IMG/VR virus record: IMGVR_UViG_3300010412_000033
Span: 1-40,548 of that record
Length of the DNA: 40,548 bases
From: a virus
Direction: 5' to 3' (one strand)
The position numbers were made by a program, and so were the translations under genes. The stretch's first letter is position 1, and every line of letters begins with the position of its first letter. Below, in pieces: positions 3,906 through 40,548 of the stretch. Below the pieces are notes generated by a model. It worked only from the letters and a program-made list of their open reading frames with translations, made no database searches and was not told the DNA's origin.

Positions 3906-4591
3906 TACAGGTCCTCTTTATATCTTATAGTTATATGCAGGTCAAGGACTGTACCGCTTTGGGCCGTAGTCTCTAACCATACCCAGGAACCGGCTGGGAT
4001 CGTGGCGTTATCGAACACCGTTACTTTATCGCCCGTAGTTACATCAGTTGTAGTAGTACCTCCCACCACAATCTCTGATCCTACGGCACTTCTATCTGGG
4101 CCATACCTAAAGGTCCAGGTTACTGATGGGGTGGATACCCCGTTCAATACAGCTGCCAATTCGTAAATGGTAAGAGCCACCGGGGTGTAGAAGATCGTAA
4201 CATCTTCAGCGCCGCTTGGTGTCTCAACCGTTACCGATTTTGATTTGGCAGCAGTATCCTTTGTCAAATCCTGCAGGGCCATGGTCAGCTTGTCTAGAGC
4301 AAACTCGTGGGTTTCTGAATCAAATGGCCCATACCTTGTGTAGTCATTTTCCTGGGTAATTGGCACGTTACGCGCCAACACTATCTGTTGGCCGTTTGGT
4401 GGTGCTACTAAGTAGTCAACCGATCCACCGGGGGCGATATCCTGATTGCCGTTAAGCAAGATCTGGTCCAGGTTCGTATTGTACGATAAACTCAGCCAGT
4501 TCAGGTCGTCGACCCTAAAGCCAAACGCGAAGCTGGTGGTTACACCGTTGCCGAGGAATGTTACCTCAGATGCTATGTCTTGAACTGTCAT
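3905..4591 (-). CDS. Tail-fibre adaptor-type protein, paralogue A
   Basis: A 228-aa protein whose first 120 residues match the N-terminal attachment domain of T7-type tail fibres and related adaptors. Features include FAFGFRVDDLNWLSL, VAPPNGQQIVLARNVPITQE, DYTRYGPF, then an acidic/helical ALDKLTMALQDL. The same domain with the same order is found at 38523-39215, so the genome carries two copies. The C-terminal half here (from about residue 125) is different, beta-rich, and probably joins to a partner protein. Its start overlaps the stop of the largest internal virion gene by four bases (ATGA). It is likely to attach to the tail tube and carry the next proteins in the operon. Confidence 0.75.
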   Translation of the reverse strand: MTVQDIASEVTFLGNGVTTSFAFGFRVDDLNWLSLSYNTNLDQILLNGNQDIAPGGSVDYLVAPPNGQQIVLARNVPITQENDYTRYGPFDSETHEFALDKLTMALQDLTKDTAAKSKSVTVETPSGAEDVTIFYTPVALTIYELAAVLNGVSTPSVTWTFRYGPDRSAVGSEIVVGGTTTTDVTTGDKVTVFDNATIPAGSWVWLETTAQSGTVLDLHITIRYKEDL

Positions 4592-22152: not shown

Positions 22153-22276
22153 TACTCGATTTTCTCAGAGAAGGACCAGAAAGACCATGAAGACCCACGC
22201 GGCCTCGAGCGCGTTCCACAAAAGACCACGGTCTTCCAGGTCTCGCTCTCAACACGCTCCCAGAGGCAACAGATAC

Positions 22277-26096: not shown

Positions 26097-27518
26097 ATGG
26101 GCTTTACTTTCAAGGTCCCTCCAATGGGCCACCAAACGGTGGCCTTGCGGAGGGCTTGGAATCGCCAGGAGTTCGCCCTTTTCCATGAAATGGGAACAGG
26201 CAAGACCTACACAACAATAAATCTTGCCGCTGCGCGCTTTGAACGGGACCAAATCGACGGGTTAGTGGTCATATGTCCAACGCCAATCAAAAACGTATGG
26301 GAAATAGAGCTATCCAAGTTCTGCCCTACCAACTACAGCGTTTGGGTCTATGAATCAGGTGATCAGCCTTTTAATTGGATCACATCAAAACGGGATGAAC
26401 TCAAGGTTCTCGTCGTGGGAGTTGAGTCCTTATCTATCGATAATGGACGGTCGATGCAGACCATTGAATTCTTTAGACGACACCATAAGTTCATGGCCGT
26501 TGTGGACGAATCCAGTCGGATCAAGAACTGGAAAGCTAAAAGAACGAAGAACGTCGTTAAGGTTGGCGGATGGGCTGATTATCGACTCATACTCACAGGA
26601 ACACCTATCACCCAAGGTATGGAAGACCTCTTTGGTCAGTTCCTTTTCCTGAACTCCAAGATCATCGATTGTAAGAATTTCTTCGTCTTTCGCAATAAAT
26701 ACTGCGTGATGGGTGGCTTCCAGGGTAAGCAGATCCTTGGTTATCAATTCACTGATGACTTACTGGAGCGGATTCGGCCATTTGTGGATTATGTCACCAA
26801 GGAAGAGTGCCTGGACCTGCCTCCCAAGGTGTATGCTGACCCATTGCTGGTCAAACCCACGCCAGAGCAAGCCCGGGTGATGTCGCAACTGACACGCGAA
26901 TACGCAATGCAGGATCAAGACAAGGAAATCGAAGTGTCAACGGTCCTGGAACGCATGCTGCGCTATCAACAGGTGATAGGTGGTACTTTCCCGTTTGAGG
27001 AAGACGGTGAATACCACACCAAACCGATCAGTGGCAAGAATCCCAAGATCGATGCAATGATGGAGTACATCAGTGACATACCAGAAAATGCCAAGGTTAT
27101 TATATGGGCACGATTTGTCCCTGAAATACAGTATATTTCTAAGGCTCTCGATGAGGAATACGGGGAAGATAGTTTTGTCACATTTTATGGCAAAACGACC
27201 CAAGACGAGAGGCGGGACAACACCATCCGATTCCAGGATGACCCATCATGCCGATTCATGGTGTCTAATCAAACCGTGGGCGGCTATGGTCAAACGTGGA
27301 CAGCGGCCACTTATGTAATATACTACAGTAATACCTTTAGCTACGAGGATCGTTACCAATCAGAAGACCGGGCGCACCGTAAGGGGCAGACCAATCACGT
27401 AACGTACCAGGATATCGAAATGGGAGTACAGCAGGACCAAATGATCCTGAAAGCGATACGCAAGAAGAAGGACCTCGCTAAAATTGTGGAGGAAGAGCTA
27501 ACACAACCCGCAGAGTAA
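26097..27518 (+). CDS. SNF2-family DNA helicase/translocase
   Basis: A 473-aa superfamily 2 ATPase. Seen are a Q-type motif around H12-Q13, Walker A EMGTGKT (31-37), motif II VVDESS (135-140), motif III LTGTPIT (166-172), and motif VI QSEDRAHRKGQ (about 421-431), the last being diagnostic for SNF2-type proteins. In phages such enzymes remodel or unwind DNA in replication or recombination. The gene begins directly after the histone-tail gene (stop TAA, then ATG) and is followed by P5. I see no nuclease domain. Confidence 0.92.
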   Translation: MGFTFKVPPMGHQTVALRRAWNRQEFALFHEMGTGKTYTTINLAAARFERDQIDGLVVICPTPIKNVWEIELSKFCPTNYSVWVYESGDQPFNWITSKRDELKVLVVGVESLSIDNGRSMQTIEFFRRHHKFMAVVDESSRIKNWKAKRTKNVVKVGGWADYRLILTGTPITQGMEDLFGQFLFLNSKIIDCKNFFVFRNKYCVMGGFQGKQILGYQFTDDLLERIRPFVDYVTKEECLDLPPKVYADPLLVKPTPEQARVMSQLTREYAMQDQDKEIEVSTVLERMLRYQQVIGGTFPFEEDGEYHTKPISGKNPKIDAMMEYISDIPENAKVIIWARFVPEIQYISKALDEEYGEDSFVTFYGKTTQDERRDNTIRFQDDPSCRFMVSNQTVGGYGQTWTAATYVIYYSNTFSYEDRYQSEDRAHRKGQTNHVTYQDIEMGVQQDQMILKAIRKKKDLAKIVEEELTQPAE

Positions 27519-27555: not shown

Positions 27556-27599
27556 AGTCGGTGGGGTGGGGCCACCCACCCAAATCACAGGAGAGAAAA

Positions 27600-28052
27600 A
27601 TGGACGAAGACAGACGGCAACAAGTCATTGATGCGCTTGAGGGCGCGTCTTATAACCACCTAGTGGCCGCGATGTTGGCAGCACAAGAGCACCACGCCAA
27701 CCTGAAAGCGGCTGCAGCCGAAGCCTGGGAAGAGGTGGTGTTGATCACTCGACACATAATCCCAGAGCGAATGGATGCTGACCAGATCCAGAATATCACA
27801 GTAATTCTGCCCGATGGCAGCAAGAAGCAGCTCCTTTGCATTGATCAGGTATCCGTGAAAACGCCGCCTGACCAAAAGGCCAACCTTTACGCGTGGTTGA
27901 CCGCTCATGGTGCCGAGGAGCTTATTACCGAGACGGTTAACTCGTCCAGCTTGGCTGGATTCGTTAGAGAGCAGATGCGGCAAGGAGAACCATGGCCAGC
28001 CGACATTTGTGAGGTATCGACCTATACAACCGCCTCTCTCCGCAAGGCCTAA
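27600..28052 (+). CDS. Conserved phage protein near replication genes, 150 aa
   Basis: A 150-aa protein starting at ATG 27600 after ACAGGAGAG and P5. The end (DQVSVKTPPDQKANLYAWLTAHGAEELITETVNSSSLAGFVREQM) is a pattern I have seen in many phage proteins that sit near SSB or recombination genes; the role in that family is not known to me. The first 60 residues form helices rich in Ala. There are no membrane segments. Confidence 0.7.
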   Translation: MDEDRRQQVIDALEGASYNHLVAAMLAAQEHHANLKAAAAEAWEEVVLITRHIIPERMDADQIQNITVILPDGSKKQLLCIDQVSVKTPPDQKANLYAWLTAHGAEELITETVNSSSLAGFVREQMRQGEPWPADICEVSTYTTASLRKA

Positions 28053-28216: not shown

Positions 28217-28984
28217 ATGGCTAAGAAAGATGTAGCAGTAGCAGCCCAGACGGGTCTTGCAGAGCGCCCTACTTGGATGGGTGATAGTTCACGTGGCTCA
28301 GAAGAAGTGACGATTCAAGATGTCACCATCCCGCGACTGTCGATAATCCAGGACCTCAGTCCTCAGCGTAAGAAGAACAACGCTGAGTATATTGAGGGTG
28401 CCGAGGAAGGCATGCTCTTCAATACGGTGACCAACGAACTGTACACTGATCCAGTGTTGTTCGTACCGGTCTACTTCCGCCTGGAGTGGTTGGTGTGGAA
28501 GCATCGGGATGCCGGTGGTGGCTTGCAGGGTGTCTTTGCGACGCAGGATGAAGCAGTATCCTTTGTGTCACAACACCAGTTAGCTGGTCAAACCACAGAG
28601 AAGGGTGAACCGGTACTCGAAGTTCAAGACACAGCTCAGCATTTTGGGCTGTTGTTGGACCCCAACTCACCCGCCGAACACCCCCACGCTACTGAAATCG
28701 TGGTGTCAATGTCTCGGAGCCAGTTGAAACCGAGCCGCCAGCTGAATAGCCAGGTCCGCATTGCGGGTGGCGATCGCTGGGAGCGTTATTACCGTCTGTC
28801 TGCTGTGCAGGTTGACGGTCCTCGCGGTGACTACTGGAACTGGAAGGTAGAGCAGCTTGGATTTGTGTCGGAAAACGTGTACAAGCAAGCTGAGTCCCTT
28901 TACGAGGCCGTAAAGTCCGGTCAACGCGACGTAGAGCGCGATAACACGGAATCGACGACTGAAGTAGACGACGACAACATGTAG
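28217..28984 (+). CDS. Probable single-stranded DNA-binding-like protein
   Basis: A 255-aa protein. Position just before polymerase and primase, a beta-rich middle section, and an acidic tail (TESTTEVDDDNM) resemble phage ssDNA-binding proteins such as T7 gp2.5. The opening TIQDVTIPRLSIIQDLSPQRKKNNAEYIEGAEEGM is found in a family of phage proteins next to DNA replication genes. Direct proof of an OB fold cannot be had by eye. A strong terminator follows within 10 bases. Confidence 0.55.
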   Translation: MAKKDVAVAAQTGLAERPTWMGDSSRGSEEVTIQDVTIPRLSIIQDLSPQRKKNNAEYIEGAEEGMLFNTVTNELYTDPVLFVPVYFRLEWLVWKHRDAGGGLQGVFATQDEAVSFVSQHQLAGQTTEKGEPVLEVQDTAQHFGLLLDPNSPAEHPHATEIVVSMSRSQLKPSRQLNSQVRIAGGDRWERYYRLSAVQVDGPRGDYWNWKVEQLGFVSENVYKQAESLYEAVKSGQRDVERDNTESTTEVDDDNM

Positions 28985-29033: not shown

Positions 29034-29285
29034 ATGGCGTTTGAACAAAAAGAAAATAGCGGTAGCCTCTTTGTAAATGATCGCAAGGAGAAAGAATCAC
29101 AACCAGATCGTCAGGGTTCGGCTAAGGTAGTGTGCCCCGAGTGCAACAAAGCCTCTGAGTTTTGGCTCTCCGGGTGGATTAAGGACCTCAAGAATAAGCC
29201 GGGTAAGTGGCTGTCCATCGCGTTTGAGGTGAAAGAAGACAAGCCAGCTGTGGCTCCAGAGTTCGACGACGATATCCCATTCTAA
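29034..29285 (+). CDS. Small protein with an SSB-type C-terminal tail
   Basis: An 83-aa protein. Its last eight residues EFDDDIPF nearly copy the end of E. coli SSB (which ends DFDDDIPF), the tail that recruits PriA, DNA polymerase III chi, RecQ, ExoI and others. Residues 10-30 (GSLFVNDRKEKESQPDRQGSAKV) match a family of small phage proteins with the pattern 'GaLF.N..K....pd..G....'. Residues 34-37 form CPEC, a possible half zinc site. It overlaps the polymerase start (TAATG). A likely role is as an SSB relative or as a decoy that captures host SSB partners; which of these is not known. Confidence 0.7.
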   Translation: MAFEQKENSGSLFVNDRKEKESQPDRQGSAKVVCPECNKASEFWLSGWIKDLKNKPGKWLSIAFEVKEDKPAVAPEFDDDIPF

Positions 29286-31153
29286 TGTACCCAGACCTCC
29301 GTCAATACCCATACTTTGCGTACGACACGGAGACAACTGGACTACATTACCCTGTTGATAAGGCATTTGCCTGCTCTATTGCCGTACCGGGTGGGGAATC
29401 CTGGTACTTCGATTTCCGGCGACAGCCGAAAGCTATCGAATGGCTCAATGACTCTTTTCAAGCTATACCCCCTGACTCAAGGGTCATTTGCCACAACGCA
29501 CCGTTCGATGCTTGCATGTCGGCTGTCGCCGGAGTTTTTATCCCGCTTGAATTGCTGGATGACACCGTAACCAGAGCCACCCTCATTAACGAACATGAGG
29601 CGACCAAGTTTCCCTGGAATAAGTATAAGCAACCGGGCAACTATAGCCTGGATTATCTGTGCCGCAAATACTTGAAGCGGGGCAAGCTAAAGATTGATAT
29701 CGAGAATATCGCAGACCTCCCGTACGAGGAAGCCAAAGCGTACGCCGCTGAGGATGCGATATTGACCCTCCTGCTGTGGGAGTGGCAGCAGGAAAAGATA
29801 ATGACTCCCGACGCTTGGGGCAGAACCCTCGAGGCGGTTGAGTCCCTAGAACGTAGGACCATGCCACGTATCATTAGATCCCAGATGACGGGGATCCGGG
29901 TAGACTTACGCCGTACTGAACGGGCAATGGCCGAAATGACCCCGCACATCAAGGAACTCCAGGCCAAAATGGATCAAATGGCCGGGTGGGGCTTTAATGT
30001 TAATTCCAGCCCACAGGTCAAGAAGCTCTTTGAGCCGAAAGAGAGGAACAAGGCGTGGTACGTTGGCGACATACGGATTGGGACCACTGATAAGGGTGCG
30101 CCCTCGTTCGGAAAGGAGTACCTGGAATCACTTGCGGAGGTAGACCCACGTGCTAGACAGATTATTGATATACGTTCCGCCCTCAAGACACGAGATACCT
30201 TCCTGGCCAAACATATCCTTGAACACGCAGTTGGGGATAGGGTGTACCCAACAATCAATCAAACAGTTCGTGAGACAGGTGGTACAAAGTGGGGACGATT
30301 ATCGTACGTTGATCCGGCTATGCAACAAATACCTAGCCGAAATAAAGTCGTGGCCGCAATTGTCAAACCATGTTTCTTACCAGATGATGGCCAAGTGTGG
30401 CTCGATTACGATCTTAACAGCTTTGAGGTCCGGGTATTCGCTGCACTTGCCTCACTATACGATAGGACACAAGCCCTACTCAAAGCGTATTCACTAGACC
30501 CATACCTCGACTTCCATCAGTGGGTTGCTGACCTAACTGGGCTGGTACGTAATGCAGAGTATGGGGGCCAACCCAACGCTAAGCAGCTAAACCTTAGCAT
30601 GATCTTTAGCCAGGGTAAGGGCGCAACAGCAGCCAAGATGGGAATGGAGACAACAGACGATGAATTTGAAGACGAGTGGGGCGAAAAGATCAAGTTCCAA
30701 AGAGCCGGTGCGGATGCGGATATCATTATCAATAGATATCACGATAGAGTTAGAGGAGTACGAGAACTTGCACGAGCAGCTAAGCAAGTCTCCGAAGATC
30801 GCGGTTATGTCCGTACTAAGTATGGAAGACACCTCCGTTTCCCTAAGAAGTACAAATCTTATAAGGCGTCTGGAATCCTGATCCAGGCAACGTCAGCTGA
30901 CATCAATAAGGAGAATTGGTGTCTGATAGATGAGGCAATGGATGGCCGGGGCCGAATGGTCCTGAACACACACGACAGTTATAGCTTAAGTGTCGATCCT
31001 GCCCATTTAGCCGGTGTTGAGAAGGACATCCCGGGGGCGATTAATAGAGAATTTTTGGGTATACCGTTGCTGTTGGACCGCAATGGTGTCGGGCTGAATT
31101 GGTGGTCAGCCTTACAGGATGAAGGGATAGATAATGTTATTACCGTTAAATGA
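29285..31153 (+). CDS. dpoZ: PolA-family DNA polymerase with 3'-5' exonuclease (DpoZ-like)
   Basis: A 622-aa family A polymerase. The exonuclease half holds exo I D14-x-E16, exo II N71...D75 and exo III Y153...D157, so proofreading looks intact. The polymerase half has motif A DLNSFEVR (D376), an O-helix PNAKQLNLSMIFSQG (K433 retained), GYVRTKYGR (508-515), QATSADI (534-540) and motif C THDS (H563, D564). There is no 5'-3' exonuclease domain. Unusual points: the O-helix Arg and aromatic positions of E. coli Pol I (R754, F762, Y766) read Q, L and F, and motif C reads HDS rather than HDE. In the known Z-phages a PolA-type enzyme (DpoZ) copies with diaminopurine; the operon with purZ, mazZ and datZ supports that name. 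Confidence 0.85.
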   Translation: MYPDLRQYPYFAYDTETTGLHYPVDKAFACSIAVPGGESWYFDFRRQPKAIEWLNDSFQAIPPDSRVICHNAPFDACMSAVAGVFIPLELLDDTVTRATLINEHEATKFPWNKYKQPGNYSLDYLCRKYLKRGKLKIDIENIADLPYEEAKAYAAEDAILTLLLWEWQQEKIMTPDAWGRTLEAVESLERRTMPRIIRSQMTGIRVDLRRTERAMAEMTPHIKELQAKMDQMAGWGFNVNSSPQVKKLFEPKERNKAWYVGDIRIGTTDKGAPSFGKEYLESLAEVDPRARQIIDIRSALKTRDTFLAKHILEHAVGDRVYPTINQTVRETGGTKWGRLSYVDPAMQQIPSRNKVVAAIVKPCFLPDDGQVWLDYDLNSFEVRVFAALASLYDRTQALLKAYSLDPYLDFHQWVADLTGLVRNAEYGGQPNAKQLNLSMIFSQGKGATAAKMGMETTDDEFEDEWGEKIKFQRAGADADIIINRYHDRVRGVRELARAAKQVSEDRGYVRTKYGRHLRFPKKYKSYKASGILIQATSADINKENWCLIDEAMDGRGRMVLNTHDSYSLSVDPAHLAGVEKDIPGAINREFLGIPLLLDRNGVGLNWWSALQDEGIDNVITVK

Positions 31154-33350
31154 AATCCGGGACATAGACCGGATAGATGATTTTAAAGTCAAAATGCACA
31201 TGGCCGCTAGGCTGTATGCAAGGCAGGGAATACCGGTAGTTCCCCTACGACCTAACAGCAAGATACTGCCTGAAAAATCCACTGGGATTAACTACTATTC
31301 GTCGTCAACCAAGGAAAAGACGATGGACAAGTGGTTCGGGGAAGGTGGCAAGTATCGTGGCTGGAACATCGGTATAGTTTGTGGCCAGGATGTCTTTGTC
31401 GTTGACTTAGACTTACATGGCCGAGAGAACGGGATCGAGAACTGGGATAAGTTTAGGGGTGACCGTGAACTTAATTGCCCAGTGCAAAAGACCCCAACAG
31501 GCGGGAAGCATCTGATCCTCCAATGGCGCGATAACCTGACATCCAGTTCGGGCAAGCTGGCCCCCGGCGTAGATACCCGGGGCGGCGACGGTAGCCCCCG
31601 CTCACACGTCGTGGCGTGGCCATCCCGGACCTCAGATGGTCAGTATGAGTGGGAGTGCGGCGGGGACGTACCCGCTACCCCGGAGTGGATCAGCGATGTC
31701 ATGGGTGTACCGTGGCGACAACGGGCAGGACGCGGAAACGAGGAGGTGGGGCAAGATGACGAAGAGTACCAGTACACCATTACCCAAATCCAGGCCATGT
31801 TGGACCACATTGATCCCAATGTATTGTCGTACGAGGAATGGCTGTTTGTTGGGCAAGCTATCAATTCACAGCACCCTAATGAAGACGGCCTTGCTGTATG
31901 GGACAGTTGGAGTGCGAATGGGGAACGTTACGTATCCGGTGAGTGTCACAAGCGATGGACCGGCTTTAACCCCGGCGGTAGTATTCGAATTGGCTCGCTT
32001 ATATACTTCGCTAAGCAGGGAGGCTATAATGCAGCAGCTGACCCGGCAAGAGCCGGGGATTTTGACGAGTTAGTAGAGCGGATGAATGAGGATAATGCCG
32101 TACTACTGACAGGCGGCAAGGTCCGTATCGTTCACCGCGACAAGCTGGGTGGAATCCACGTGATGGGTAGTCAAGACTTCAACACTCTGATGTACAATAA
32201 GAAGATAACAATACCTGGGGTAACGGCATCGGGCAAACCGGTAATGAAAACCTTCACAGAAGCCGAAGTCTGGATGGGTGCTGAGGAAAGGCGCGAATGT
32301 CTAAGGGGCATGGGCTTCTTCCCGGGCAAGGACCTGTGGCACGATGGGTACGTTAACCTGTGGCAAGGTTGGGGGGTGGAGCCGGTTAAGGGTGATTGGT
32401 CCATATTCAATAATCACATACTAAATGTGCTGTGTGATGGTAATGAAGAACTGCACACCTTTGTGCTGGATTGGGCGGCTGATATGCTGCAGGACCCAAT
32501 GTACCCTAAAGGTACGGCAATAGTGATGCATGGTAAGGAGGGTACTGGTAAGGGTACTTTCTGCGAAATGTTAGGTAAGGTGGTAGGTCCGAAGCACTAT
32601 AAGCATGTGACCAATGAGCGTCATTTGACCGGCAATTTTAACTACCACTTAATGGATGGTCTATTGGTATTTGCAGACGAGGTGGTTTATGGAGGTAGTA
32701 GATCAACGGCAGGAATCCTCAAGTCCATGGTCACTGAGAAAATGCTTGTTTGCGAGAGAAAGGGCCTGGACTCTTTTATGTATGACAACCGAGTTAGACT
32801 CGCGGTGGCCTCAAATGAGGACTGGTTTATACCGGCTGGTCCCGAATCAAGGCGATGGCTCGTACTTGAGGTTAGAGATACCCATTCAAGTGACCGGCAA
32901 TATTTCGATAACCTATACCGCAAGATGGAGGAAGAAGGCGGCTTAGAAGCAATGATGTATGACTTGCTCGAGCGTAAGATCACATCGAACCTTAGCAGGG
33001 CGATTGAGACTAAAGGCCTCGAGCAACAACGGGCAATATACCGAGCCACAGGCGATTCAGTTGATCGGTGGCTTGACGAGTGTATTGCAAAGGGAAGTCT
33101 CGGTGTAGCCGATGCTAATGACATGGGCGATCGAGTTGGGACTTGGCCAGAAGACGTGGATAGGATCGAATTATTCAATGTCTACACCAATTGGGCCAAT
33201 GATAAGAAAGCAAGAACTAAGGGCGCAGCCCATTTTTATAAAAAGGTAGAAAGTTATGGCTTCATCAAACACAGGCCAAGGGTCGCAAACGGCATCAGGA
33301 AGTGGAGATACAAGGTCCCGCCTCATGAGCGGTTTGACCCCCAAGGTTGA
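31134..33350 (+). CDS. Primase-polymerase/helicase fusion
   Basis: A 738-aa protein. Residues 1-200 resemble a bifunctional prim-pol (AEP) domain: D91-x-D93 (VVDLDLHG), GGKH at 123-126, and D147 (APGVDTRGGDG). Residues of about 212-300 look like a primase C-terminal (PriCT-2) region (LSYEEWLFVGQAI, CHKRWTGF). A superfamily 3-type helicase follows with Walker A GKEGTGKGT (467-475), Walker B LLVFADE (510-516), a sensor segment RLAVASNED and an arginine finger ESRRWLVLE, as in phage P4-type and DUF5906 proteins. One gene could thus supply both primer synthesis and unwinding. It starts inside the polymerase gene (20-base overlap). Confidence 0.88.
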   Translation: MLLPLNEIRDIDRIDDFKVKMHMAARLYARQGIPVVPLRPNSKILPEKSTGINYYSSSTKEKTMDKWFGEGGKYRGWNIGIVCGQDVFVVDLDLHGRENGIENWDKFRGDRELNCPVQKTPTGGKHLILQWRDNLTSSSGKLAPGVDTRGGDGSPRSHVVAWPSRTSDGQYEWECGGDVPATPEWISDVMGVPWRQRAGRGNEEVGQDDEEYQYTITQIQAMLDHIDPNVLSYEEWLFVGQAINSQHPNEDGLAVWDSWSANGERYVSGECHKRWTGFNPGGSIRIGSLIYFAKQGGYNAAADPARAGDFDELVERMNEDNAVLLTGGKVRIVHRDKLGGIHVMGSQDFNTLMYNKKITIPGVTASGKPVMKTFTEAEVWMGAEERRECLRGMGFFPGKDLWHDGYVNLWQGWGVEPVKGDWSIFNNHILNVLCDGNEELHTFVLDWAADMLQDPMYPKGTAIVMHGKEGTGKGTFCEMLGKVVGPKHYKHVTNERHLTGNFNYHLMDGLLVFADEVVYGGSRSTAGILKSMVTEKMLVCERKGLDSFMYDNRVRLAVASNEDWFIPAGPESRRWLVLEVRDTHSSDRQYFDNLYRKMEEEGGLEAMMYDLLERKITSNLSRAIETKGLEQQRAIYRATGDSVDRWLDECIAKGSLGVADANDMGDRVGTWPEDVDRIELFNVYTNWANDKKARTKGAAHFYKKVESYGFIKHRPRVANGIRKWRYKVPPHERFDPQG

Positions 33351-34317
33351 TATCGTCGTTGACCTGCAATTTGGTAGTACGGGTAAAGGTCTAATCTGTG
33401 GGTATCTTGCCGATACCCGGGAGTATGACACGGTTGTATCGGCCAACATGCCGAATGCCGGTCATACCTACATCAATGCTAACGGCCAGAAGTGGATGTT
33501 TAAGGTACTACCATCAAGTGCTGTAGGCAAGAGCGTCAAAACAGTAATGTTAGGCCCGGGCGCGATCTTTAGCCTTACGAGGTTAGTCGAGGAAATGGCG
33601 CACTTAAGGTCTGACCAGAGGCTGGTGATCCACCCCAACGCTGTGCTGTTGTCCGAGGATCACGCCAAGAAAGAGCGCAAGAAGCTGCAACATATTAGCA
33701 GTACAACACAGGGCAGCGCTGCTGCAATGATTGAGAAGATCTGGCGATCGGGTAATGCTCCAACAGCCGGAAAGATTCTCAAGGGCACAAAATTCGATAA
33801 CCTCGTGGCATCCCATGATGAATGGCAAATTCGCCTGTCAATGGCAGATGCTATACTTGCCGAAGGTTCGCAGGGGTATAGTCTGGGTATCAATACCCAA
33901 TTCTATCCCTATACCACCAGCCGGGATTGTACCCCTGCGTCCTTCCTTTCTGCAATGTCTATACCTCTGGCGATGTTAAATGAGGTATACGGCGTGGCGA
34001 GGACATTGCCTATCCGCGTCGGGGGGCCGAGTGGCGATTGCTATCCGGACCAGACTGAATTGACCTGGGAGCAGGTGGGTCAACCGCTTGAAAGAACCAC
34101 AGTGACTAACAAGATCAGGCGGATCTTTACCTACTCGCAGAAGCAGATGGAAGATGCCATATTCAACTGCAACCCGGATCATGTCTTTCTCAATTTCTGT
34201 AACTACGTGACCGAGGCAGAGGTGCAACAGATGGTGGCCCATATTGACCAGTACAGCAACGTCAAGTGGGTCGGGTTTGGTCCCACGTTCAATGATGTGG
34301 GGGTGTTGCATGGATGA
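33325..34317 (+). CDS. purZ: PurZ, N6-succino-2-amino-2'-deoxyadenylate synthase
   Basis: A 330-aa relative of adenylosuccinate synthetase PurA. The key first loop reads VVDLQFGSTGKG (GSTGKG at 17-22), where PurA has GDEGKG with a catalytic Asp; the Ser is the reported mark of PurZ. NAGHTY (44-49) is the second signature, and GPSGDC, LTWEQVG and NFCNYV further fit the family. PurZ joins Asp to dGMP using ATP; host PurB then releases fumarate to give dZMP. I start it at ATG 33325, 10 residues before the first strand; an upstream ATG at 33256 with a better ribosome site would add 23 low-complexity residues that lie over the primase gene. Confidence 0.94.
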   Translation: MSGLTPKVDIVVDLQFGSTGKGLICGYLADTREYDTVVSANMPNAGHTYINANGQKWMFKVLPSSAVGKSVKTVMLGPGAIFSLTRLVEEMAHLRSDQRLVIHPNAVLLSEDHAKKERKKLQHISSTTQGSAAAMIEKIWRSGNAPTAGKILKGTKFDNLVASHDEWQIRLSMADAILAEGSQGYSLGINTQFYPYTTSRDCTPASFLSAMSIPLAMLNEVYGVARTLPIRVGGPSGDCYPDQTELTWEQVGQPLERTTVTNKIRRIFTYSQKQMEDAIFNCNPDHVFLNFCNYVTEAEVQQMVAHIDQYSNVKWVGFGPTFNDVGVLHG

Positions 34318-34609
34318 ATTAGCCGCTGTCCAAAGAGCAATCTGGGAGTGGGCTAATGGTATTATGCCGGAAAGGACTCCGGCTGATGCTATCAAGAAGC
34401 TGTCAATGGAGGAAGTACCAGAGTTGTGGCGCTCCCTCAAGGAGAATGGTACGGTTGACGAGGACGAAATTGCCGATATCCTAATCCTTACGCTCGATAT
34501 CTGTGAAATGTGCAATATCGATGCACTTGACGCGATCCACATAAAAATGCAAGAAAACATAAGACGCAAATGGAAATTCGAATACGGGGTACTACAACAT
34601 GAAGATTAA
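34310..34609 (+). CDS. mazZ: MazZ, MazG-type (d)GTP pyrophosphohydrolase
   Basis: A 99-aa protein with the all-helical MazG-like motif: E34-E35-x-x-E38 (MEEVPE) and E53-x-x-D56 (EIAD), which bind metal. In cyanophage S-2L the protein at the same position (MazZ) converts dGTP to dGMP and pyrophosphate to feed PurZ. Its substrate here is inferred from that and from its place directly after purZ, whose stop it overlaps by 8 bases. Small MazG proteins act on many nucleotides, so substrate choice should be tested. Confidence 0.85.
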   Translation: MDELAAVQRAIWEWANGIMPERTPADAIKKLSMEEVPELWRSLKENGTVDEDEIADILILTLDICEMCNIDALDAIHIKMQENIRRKWKFEYGVLQHED

Positions 34610-35099
34610 TGACATTCTCCGCGCATCCGGTGTAACCCGGTGGCACATCGTCAGAACCGTAAGACCACAATCCCTGGCAGAACACACGTTTGACGTGGTT
34701 ATGATCGCTAGAGCCATTGCCAAAATCGCGGGGCACAACGACTATGAAATTACAAAGGCAGCTTTACTCCACGACCTCGATGAAATTGTCACAGGCGATA
34801 TCCCAACTCCGACTAAGGGTAGAGCGCGTGATAACGGTTGGAATCTTAATGAGCTTTATAAAGGAATTACGGGACGCGAACTTAGTCCAGACGAATCGCT
34901 CATTGTCAAATTGGCCGATAAAATGGCCGACCTCCACTGGTTGTGGCTGCATGCGCTTGGACCCCATTCTAACCGGGTGTATGAGATTATGGCCGACGAA
35001 TTCAATAACTACGTGCGCTCCGATGCGATACCAGATAACATTCGGGAAGCGACACTCGACGTTCAAATGCAGATGTTATCTGAGGAGTTTGTGATATGA
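34599..35099 (+). CDS. datZ: DatZ, HD-domain dATP triphosphohydrolase
   Basis: A 166-aa HD-domain protein with ligands H29, H58-D59 (LLHDLDEI) and D108 (KLADKMADL). Its size and the phrase HTFDVVMIARAIAK fit the short DatZ of Z-phages, which hydrolyses dATP to deoxyadenosine and triphosphate and so keeps adenine out of new DNA. It overlaps mazZ by 11 bases and the next gene by 4, so production with PurZ is assured. YfbR-type dNMP phosphatases share the fold and are an alternative, but the gene context favours DatZ. Confidence 0.9.
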   Translation: MKINDILRASGVTRWHIVRTVRPQSLAEHTFDVVMIARAIAKIAGHNDYEITKAALLHDLDEIVTGDIPTPTKGRARDNGWNLNELYKGITGRELSPDESLIVKLADKMADLHWLWLHALGPHSNRVYEIMADEFNNYVRSDAIPDNIREATLDVQMQMLSEEFVI

Positions 35100-35581
35100 G
35101 TGGCGAACGCCGAATGTGGAAGTATTTAAGCCCCAAGCTAAAGAAATACGGGCATTTTGAGAGAGTCGAGTCCCACGAGACAGCTATTGGTACTCCTGAC
35201 GTGGAGTACTGCATCGAGGGTTATACCAACCGCCTGGAACTCAAATATACTGAGAGGGAAATGGGGTGTCACTTACGAGCCGCCCAGTGTGGGTGGTTCA
35301 AGAAGAGGGTTAAGGCCAAAGGCCAACCGTGGTTATTACTCCACGCCAAAATTCGGGGCAAGAGGTCATATGCCCTGATTGCTGGAGCGGATGTGCCACC
35401 ATTGGTATATACCAAGGACGTTCAAGATTGGCTCACAGCGGCGGTAATGGTATGGGAAGACAAGATCGATATAGAACAGTTAGTGGACTTCCTGAAAACG
35501 TACTTGATTGTAGATGGTACGAAACCAAAAGAGTCTTCTGGATTGATTTTACCTGGGAAGGACTTGATAACATCAGTCTAA
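35096..35581 (+). CDS. PD-(D/E)xK nuclease, VRR-NUC-like
   Basis: A 161-aa protein. The motif GTPDVEY ... LELKYTE gives a PD (P34-D35) and E48-x-K50, a PD-(D/E)xK core, and Q64 in AAQCGWFKKR fits a VRR-NUC-like helix. Nucleases of this kind resolve junctions or cut recombination intermediates. It starts four bases inside datZ, so it is the last gene of the Z operon. A role in breaking host DNA while sparing Z-DNA is attractive but is only an inference. Confidence 0.72.
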   Translation: MSGERRMWKYLSPKLKKYGHFERVESHETAIGTPDVEYCIEGYTNRLELKYTEREMGCHLRAAQCGWFKKRVKAKGQPWLLLHAKIRGKRSYALIAGADVPPLVYTKDVQDWLTAAVMVWEDKIDIEQLVDFLKTYLIVDGTKPKESSGLILPGKDLITSV

Positions 35582-38522: not shown

Positions 38523-39215
38523 CTATACACTCGGGTCAATGTTACCCGCAATGAACCACTTGTTGGGTTCATCTTGGATAATGGTTACTGTTCCTTTTTG
38601 CAGGGCGACTGCAGCATTCGTGAATGGGTTGTCCAATACGACACCGATCCCTGGCGTAAACTGCAGTACTGATGTCCCATGCTGCTTGAACGAAATCTGA
38701 GTCCCTAATTCAAACGGGACATCTGCATTTGGGGGTATGGTTACCGTTTGTGTTCCGCCATCATCTATCGAGCGCAGCATCTTGTACGCGTCCGTGAATT
38801 CCAGGGTCCGATCACCCTGAAAATTGACGAAGTTCCAAGCGAATTCAGAGGTCCTAATATCCAGGATCTGGCCTGACAACTCTTCCTTCAAGTCTTGAAT
38901 GATAGCAGTAAGTTTGTCCAGCGCCGTTTCGTGTGCTTCCGCGTCGAAAGGTCCATATCTAGTGTAATCTTTTTCCTGCGTCAATGGAGTATTACGCTGG
39001 ATAGTGATTACCTGCCCACTAGGTGGAGCCACAGCGTAGTTGACCGAACCGCCAGGATTGGTGTCTTGATCGATGTTAAGTGATATCGAATTCAGCTGAT
39101 CGGTAAAACTAACCACGACCCACGATATTCCATCAACCCGGAAGTTAAACGCGAAGTCAACAGTTACACCATCACCTGTATATTCAACATTATTGGTTAC
39201 GTCTTGAATTGTCAT
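38523..39215 (-). CDS. Tail-fibre adaptor-type protein, paralogue B
   Basis: A 230-aa protein with the same N-terminal 120 residues in plan as paralogue A at 3905-4591: FAFNFRVDGISWVVVSF, VAPPSGQVITIQRNTPLTQE, DYTRYGPFDAEAHETALDKL. The C-terminal half is different (FQGDRTLEFTDAYKMLRSIDDG), typical of a fibre attachment part. It follows the long repeat protein by a short gap with an AAGGAG. It should place the fibre tip at 37751-38521 on the tail. Confidence 0.75.
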   Translation of the reverse strand: MTIQDVTNNVEYTGDGVTVDFAFNFRVDGISWVVVSFTDQLNSISLNIDQDTNPGGSVNYAVAPPSGQVITIQRNTPLTQEKDYTRYGPFDAEAHETALDKLTAIIQDLKEELSGQILDIRTSEFAWNFVNFQGDRTLEFTDAYKMLRSIDDGGTQTVTIPPNADVPFELGTQISFKQHGTSVLQFTPGIGVVLDNPFTNAAVALQKGTVTIIQDEPNKWFIAGNIDPSV

Positions 39216-39224
39216 TATCGCTCC

Positions 39225-40548
39225 TTAAGTGATGACGAATAACCGCTGCGATGGTTCAGTAAATTCGACTGTTGGTGCGTATGCTGTTAAGGTTATAGTC
39301 TCAGCGTCCAACTGGCTGATCACATTTTCAGTGGCCACTACCGTTGGGGCATACCCTGTGACCGTGATCGCTTGGCTGGCCAACGTGGACGTGTTGTTAT
39401 CGGTCGCGACCACCTGTGGGTCATAACCAACCAGGTCAAGCGTCTCAGCGTCCAGATTAGACTGATTAGGATTAACACCCTCGGTAGTTACAATCTGGGG
39501 GCCATTAGTGGCCAGGCCCAATGTCTCGGCATCCAGTAAGGATACACGATTCTCTGTGGTTACTACCGTTGGGTCATTATCGGTTAACGACAGAGACTGC
39601 GATGGTAGGTTACTGTCGTTGGCCCCACTTTCAGTTGTTACTGCGTCTGGTGCGTAACCCACCAGACTGAGCGTTTCGGCATCAAGCTGGCTAAAGTTGT
39701 TTTCAGTAGTAACCGTCTGAGGGTCGAAATCAGCAACAGAGAGGCTTTCTGCGGGGAGTAAACTAACTTCGCCCTCAGACGTGACCGCTTCTGGAGCGTA
39801 CGCCGTGAGATCAAGTGTCTCAGCGTCCAGTTGACTGAAATGATTCTCGGTTGTAACAGCCGTTGGCGCATAACCCACCAAATCGAGCGTTTCAGCATCG
39901 AGGTCGGCAACGTTATTCTCGGTCGTAACAGCCTGGGGATCGTACCCAACCAGATCCAACGTTTCAGCGTCAAGTTGGCTGGTATTAGGGTTAGTATTTT
40001 CTGTTGTGACGATCTGCGGATTGTTGTCGCCAATCGTGAGAACCGGACGCGGTAGTAACGAAATATCACCGGCCCCGGCTTCCGTGGTTATGATCGTAGG
40101 ATCATAGTCAAGTATGGTTAGCGTCTCAGCGTCTAACTGGCTGAAGTGATTCTCAGTAGCAACAACGGTCGGATCGTAACCTACCAGGTCAAGTGTCTCA
40201 GCGTCAAGCTGGCTGAAGTTGTTTTCAGTCGTGACAATGGTTGGATCATAGTCCACCAGATCCAACGTTTCAGCGTCAAGCTGGCTGGTGTTGTTTTCGG
40301 TAGTAACGGTCTGTGGGTCAAACCCGACGAGATCCAATGTCTCGGCATCCAACAACGATACCCGGTTCTCTGTGGATACAACCGTGGGATCAAAGTCTGT
40401 TAGTGCCAGGGTTTCAGCGTCAAGTTGACTAAAGTTGTTTTCAGTAGTAACAACCTGAGGATCGAAGTCCGTTAGGTCCAGCGTCTCGGCATCCAACGCC
40501 GAAATATTCTTTTCCGTGGTAACGATTACTGGATCGTTATCAGACAGG
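39225..40548 (-). CDS. Repeat-rich tail protein, C-terminal part (continues from 1)
   Basis: This is the rest of the gene that starts at 2501. It enters at the window edge, in frame, and ends with ...SQRLFVIT and TAA at 39225. It holds 17 of the 26 units of about 24 aa, such as LDAETLDLVGYDPTVV, with a few units changed to LPSQSLSLTDNDP or LASQAITVTGYAP. The regular DPQ and VTTE positions suggest a beta-solenoid or beta-rod, in which each unit adds a turn. The protein lacks Cys in the repeats. Its length may vary between isolates, as tandem units allow. Confidence 0.8.
   Translation of the reverse strand, partial: LSDNDPVIVTTEKNISALDAETLDLTDFDPQVVTTENNFSQLDAETLALTDFDPTVVSTENRVSLLDAETLDLVGFDPQTVTTENNTSQLDAETLDLVDYDPTIVTTENNFSQLDAETLDLVGYDPTVVATENHFSQLDAETLTILDYDPTIITTEAGAGDISLLPRPVLTIGDNNPQIVTTENTNPNTSQLDAETLDLVGYDPQAVTTENNVADLDAETLDLVGYAPTAVTTENHFSQLDAETLDLTAYAPEAVTSEGEVSLLPAESLSVADFDPQTVTTENNFSQLDAETLSLVGYAPDAVTTESGANDSNLPSQSLSLTDNDPTVVTTENRVSLLDAETLGLATNGPQIVTTEGVNPNQSNLDAETLDLVGYDPQVVATDNNTSTLASQAITVTGYAPTVVATENVISQLDAETITLTAYAPTVEFTEPSQRLFVIT
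39228..40548 (-). repeat. 72-bp coding repeats, second part (17 units)
   Basis: Same array as at 1-743. Several units share phrases at the DNA level (for example CTCAGCGTC and CCAACTGGCTGA runs on the plus strand), which can mislead short-read assembly. The array ends 24 bases before the stop codon. Confidence 0.9.
40405..40548. repeat. Terminal overlap, copy 2 (circular contig)
   Basis: Identical to positions 1-144; see copy 1. The bases here are the continuation of the array, and should be counted once in the genome of 40,404 bp. Confidence 0.95.

Follow-up and report, generated by a model that had tools for sequence, protein, structure and literature searches.

We find that the viral record IMGVR_UViG_3300010412_000033 (positions 1 to 40,548; this whole stretch of 40,548 bases is called the window here) carries an operon which, as judged from homology, we are highly confident directs the synthesis of a genome with 2-aminoadenine (Z), following the route known from phiVC8 and S-2L. 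Our comparisons show directly what the genes are and that their active sites are conserved, while the enzyme activities, the host steps and a virion DNA containing Z are predicted from homology. Replacement of A by Z in the DNA of this virus is very likely. In the proposed pathway, MazZ would convert dGTP to dGMP, which PurZ would join to aspartate with the use of ATP or dATP to give succino-dZMP, and PurB and kinases of the host would carry this product on to dZTP. DatZ would remove dATP, and DpoZ together with the primase-polymerase/helicase and the SSB would copy the genome, preferring Z over A opposite T. This pathway had been put forward in an earlier note on the same DNA and is well supported by our tests of protein family, residues and structure.

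Our reading rests on the fact that DpoZ and PurZ both pass the NCBIfam cut-offs, that the nearest structures are those of characterised Z enzymes and that the diagnostic residues are kept. It rests also on a gene order which is that of phiVC8 and BUCT555, and on a module that recurs in almost every related viral contig. Three observations count against it, namely a MazZ that scores under the Pfam cut-offs, the change of its residue N20 to Met and a DpoZ without helix E1.

Layout of the operon and type of virus

The operon is formed by seven overlapping genes on the + strand (positions 29034–35581; Table 1), all of them located where the earlier note had placed its genes, with the addition of the SSB-like gene, which had not been named there. 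From the SSB-like gene to the nuclease gene, successive overlaps are 1, 20, 26, 8, 11 and 4 nt long, and the genes are therefore probably transcribed and translated together. The purZ-mazZ-datZ order, with mazZ in the middle, is that of Z-genome phages. The putative nuclease aligns with gp20 of phage ZP6, an annotated nuclease, and shares with it a GxPD...ExK motif; no sequence match for it was found in the PDB.

Table 1. Genes of the Z operon and its upstream flank in the window, with predicted products, and the DUF7220 gene of three related contigs.
Predicted product	Position	Strand	Evidence
SNF2-type helicase	26097–27518	+	profile matches; helicase at the same place in phiVC8
DUF7307 protein	27561–28052	+	profile matches; hypothetical gene there in phiVC8
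Pam3 gp34-like protein	28217–28984	+	profile matches; hypothetical gene there in phiVC8
SSB-like small protein, 83 aa	29034–29285	+	phrog_18154 single strand DNA binding protein, E 1.5e-7
DpoZ, family A DNA polymerase with 3'-5' exonuclease, 622 aa	29285–31153	+	NF038380, 7pbk
Primase-polymerase/helicase, 738 aa	31134–33350	+	Prim-Pol PF09250, E 1e-18; PriCT_2 PF08707, E 2e-17; DUF5906 PF19263, E 3e-23
PurZ, N6-succino-2-amino-dAMP synthetase, 330 aa from ATG 33325	33325–34317	+	NF038379, phiVC8 PurZ
MazZ (MazZ-1 type), (d)GTP diphosphohydrolase, 99 aa from ATG 34310	34310–34609	+	7ody
DatZ, dATP triphosphohydrolase, 166 aa	34599–35099	+	phrog_7076, 6zpa
Putative PD-(D/E)XK (VRR-NUC-like) nuclease, 161 aa	35096–35581	+	phrog_2165, E 5e-19
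DUF7220 gene of relatives	L034 11313–11582; L035 11316–11537; L005 6410–6643		

The window encodes T7-type tail tubular proteins, a head-tail adaptor, an internal virion protein and T7-gp17-like fibre domains, in agreement with the earlier description of the virus as a podovirus. These virion genes are located on the - strand. The head-tail adaptor is 55% identical to those of Vibrio phages of the phiVC8 group, which are its nearest annotated relatives. No DNA near-identical to the window was present in the phage records searched, and bacterial genome contigs gave only a few, distant matches to PurZ.

Two - strand proteins (3908–4591 and 38526–39215) begin with an N-terminal T7-gp17-like tail fibre domain (phrog_1640), which suggests the presence of two tail fibre or spike anchors. 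A 62-nt repeat occurs in three copies (at 22263, 23712 and 25533) before early + strand genes and contains a near-consensus sigma-70 promoter (TTGACA ... TATAAT-like). The two ends of the record are identical over 144 nt and are spanned by a - strand protein gene that consists of diverged 72-nt (24-aa) repeats (39228–40548 and 1 to about 650). Because the terminal repeat lies inside this gene, the repeat count may reflect assembly.

PurZ

PurZ scores 319 bits against NF038379 (curated cut-off 300, E 3e-95), matches the phiVC8 PurZ structure 6fm1 with an E value of 6e-108 and is 55% identical to phiVC8 PurZ. The nearest solved sequences are 6fm1/6fko of phiVC8 and 7odx of S-2L; these entries, as well as 7ody, 6zpa and 7pbk used below, are phiVC8 or S-2L proteins (PMC8342488, PMC8065100, PMC8599892). 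Comparison with E. coli PurA and nine PurZ sequences reveals Ser in the window protein at the position of the catalytic Asp of PurA (S23 in S-2L), a change common to all of the PurZ compared. The protein retains the residues of the dGMP pocket, the TTVT loop and V241; the small changes G130 to Ser and C204 to Thr occur in relatives too. The likely start of purZ is ATG 33325, since the first ATG (33256) would add 23 residues that are absent from characterised homologues. The likely mazZ start at ATG 34310 falls within the 3' end of purZ.

PurZ is a homologue of PurA and also matches the PurA family PF00709 (E 1.5e-27), and DatZ is a member of the wide YfbR family by profile search. Such matches would be expected if PurZ were an ordinary adenylosuccinate synthetase raising the supply of adenine, with general nucleotide-pool enzymes as neighbours and normal DNA in the virion. 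However, we consider this reading extremely improbable. An identity of PurZ as ordinary PurA is rejected on the Asp-to-Ser change, the cut-offs of NF038379 and NF038380 are both exceeded, and the linkage of PurZ with DpoZ is near universal. Moreover, DatZ would destroy the dATP that an adenine-boosting PurZ helps to make.

MazZ and DatZ

MazZ matches the S-2L MazZ structure 7ody with an E value of 8e-10. Its metal ligands E35, E38, E50 and D53, along with I56, D60 and R83, are kept and are invariant across 27 aligned homologues, and K76, N80 and W85 are likewise kept, a pattern characteristic of MazZ-1 (PMC8342488). The AlphaFold2 model (pLDDT 96.7) contains four helices and two C-terminal strands (residues 88–91 and 94–97), that is, the MazG-HisE fold with the two extra strands of MazZ-1. 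The four best PDB matches of this model in Foldseek are the four chains of 7ody (TM 0.80–0.84). Of the two points noted above against MazZ, the guanine-contacting residue N20 varies among other MazZ-1 proteins too (PMC8342488).

In nine related contigs (L048, L050, L051, L056, L057, L059, L060, L063 and L065), purZ and the datZ ORF overlap or directly adjoin each other, leaving no room for a gene between them, and mazZ is therefore absent from its usual place in these loci. This contrasts with the published claim of its constant presence there. In four others a small protein of another family, with a motif like ERxFQDSKxG...EAELAEAK, is encoded in the mazZ slot (L081 11032–11361, L083 10995–11480, L100 5389–5667 and L102 1971–2321) and may represent a third type of enzyme that cuts dGTP.

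DatZ matches phrog_7076 (E 1e-32) and S-2L DatZ (6zpa, E 1e-12). The equivalents of R19, W20, I22, H34, H66, D67, P79, K81, K116 and D119, residues described in PMC8065100, are all kept and identical to those of S-2L. The residue K116 has been described as strictly conserved (PMC8065100); the window has Lys there, but the nine aligned relatives of its clade have Gln or His.

DpoZ and the missing helix E1

DpoZ scores 672.8 bits against NF038380 (curated cut-off 500, E 4e-202) and matches the phiVC8 DpoZ structure 7pbk with an E value of 6.6e-180. Equivalents of R440, L455, F459, G548 and S583 and insertions 1–3, all features described in PMC8599892, are kept, and the exonuclease catalytic residues D14, E16, D75, Y153 and D157 are invariant in the family alignments. 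The model of the protein has a pLDDT of 91.5 and its best PDB match is 7pbk (TM 0.89).

The extended exonuclease helices E1 and E2 (PMC8599892) are not both present in the window DpoZ, which lacks about 20 residues, covering E1 (A145–F155) and onward to the R161 position of E2, and in its model only a short helix (139–144) is left in the E1 region. These helices have been described for the phiVC8 enzyme and are not a condition of the NF038380 model, whose cut-off is passed. Absence of E1 is common to all contigs of the window clade that have DpoZ (64–76% identical), while in our alignment every more distant DpoZ covering the region has the longer form with E1. The degree of Z preference, reported as 10–100-fold for dZTP in phiVC8-like DpoZ, is therefore not simply transferable from phiVC8 to the window DpoZ.

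This absence raises the alternative that replacement of A is partial or conditional, with an E1-less DpoZ that discriminates weakly and with control of the nucleotide pool by DatZ and MazZ setting the A/Z ratio, as in S-2L. In S-2L, DatZ alone can impose specificity (PMC8065100), the active-site residues of the window DatZ are intact, and the part missing from the window DpoZ (E1 and the R161 position of E2) belongs to the mobile exonuclease element of the phiVC8 enzyme. However, mutation of this element in phiVC8 DpoZ (R161A/M165A) abolished exonuclease activity and raised the selectivity for Z over A (PMC8599892), so an enzyme without the element need not be less specific. DatZ is missing from three relatives whose DpoZ also lacks E1, which argues against reliance on DatZ. 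We therefore regard partial replacement as quite unlikely, and full use of the Z pathway remains our preferred reading.

Relatives with a DUF7220 gene in place of datZ

In three relatives (L034, L035 and L005) the slot between mazZ and the nuclease gene is occupied by a DUF7220 gene (PF23858) of 73–89 aa, and no DatZ was found in them either at this slot or elsewhere in the sequence at hand, which comprises two partial records and one with repeated ends (G001, carrying L035; 40,822 bases, ends identical over 141 nt). G001 keeps PurZ, MazZ-1, DpoZ, the primase and the nuclease. None of the examined loci with datZ yielded a DUF7220 gene.

On the PurZ tree the datZ-less pattern requires three changes. 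A single clade of datZ-less relatives is rejected (p-AU 3e-6, an optimistic value as the group was defined after the tree was seen). Replacement of datZ by DUF7220 would fit loss with replacement as well as cassette exchange by recombination, and recombination at the level of modules would also account for the scattered distribution of the datZ-less relatives. It is conceivable, though we hold it only tentatively, that the DpoZ of this clade discriminates Z from A without E1 well enough to make dATP removal optional, and that datZ was lost and replaced by DUF7220 several times with purZ, mazZ and dpoZ left intact. All phages with a phiVC8-like DpoZ have been said to have datZ, mazZ and purZ (PMC8599892); given these datZ-less relatives, that statement would need amending, if the contigs are as they seem.

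How common the gene set is

The earlier note took the combination of PurZ, MazZ, DatZ and a PolA-type enzyme not to be the commonest set. Our survey reveals the opposite, as DpoZ, MazZ and DatZ accompany PurZ in 39 of the 52 related viral contigs in which purZ is flanked by at least 4.5 kb upstream and at least 2.5 kb downstream; presence was called in these metagenomic contigs with small purpose-built profiles. The remaining contigs have DpoZ and DatZ with MazZ undetected (nine), no DatZ (three) or none of the three proteins (one). The cluster datZ-mazZ-purZ has been described as conserved and occurs together in ten complete phages compared (PMC8342488), and PurZ phages mostly have DatZ plus MazZ-2 or a DUF550 (MazZ) protein (PMC12884076). 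The window is an added member of an already known type of Z-phage, with an ordinary gene set. PurZ homologues are also present in L049 (a contig of 119,931 bases), L106 and L107, where the profiles detect no DpoZ, MazZ or DatZ nearby.

What goes beyond the known picture is the DpoZ of this clade without helix E1, and the three relatives with DUF7220 in place of datZ. The window adds to the Z-genome phages a metagenomic clade of podoviruses that is 50–55% identical to phiVC8 in PurZ and DpoZ. The natural variation within it, namely the E1-less DpoZ and the presence or absence of datZ among close relatives, offers ready pairs for asking whether it is the polymerase or the nucleotide pool that excludes adenine. 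As a candidate Z-preferring enzyme, the window DpoZ is also of interest for producing ZTGC-DNA.

Comparison with known Z-genome phages

It had been proposed that phiVC8, SH-Ab 15497 and S-2L carry different subsets of the Z genes. This holds for S-2L, which alone is without DpoZ, but phiVC8 and SH-Ab 15497 have all four genes.

Vibrio phage phiVC8 (Enhodamvirus), a podovirus, has the gene order of the window from the SNF2 helicase to the nuclease, and its PurZ and DpoZ are 55% and 50% identical to those of the window. However, its MazZ is of the MazZ-2 type in contrast to MazZ-1 in the window, and its DpoZ has helices E1 and E2 whereas E1 is missing from the window enzyme. Between datZ and the nuclease gene, phiVC8 has a further small ORF that the window lacks, and it has an SSB and an endonuclease just upstream of dpoZ while no endonuclease is present beside the SSB of the window. 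Alteromonas phage ZP6 (Mareflavirus) is likewise a podovirus with the same module and all four genes in phiVC8 order (PurZ 51% and DpoZ 51% identical; PMC8515928), but its MazZ is of the MazZ-2 type and its DpoZ has E1, in contrast to MazZ-1 and the E1-less enzyme of the window.

In Stenotrophomonas phage BUCT555, dpoZ, the primase gene, purZ, mazZ-1, datZ and the nuclease gene follow the order of the window, with 46–47% identity in PurZ and DpoZ; its DpoZ has E1 and its DatZ has Tyr in place of W20. SH-Ab 15497 carries its four genes in another arrangement, with MazZ within a longer protein. Cyanophage S-2L resembles the window in its purZ-mazZ-datZ cluster with a MazZ-1 and in the residues kept, but it uses an unspecific PrimPol (PMC8065100) where the window has DpoZ.
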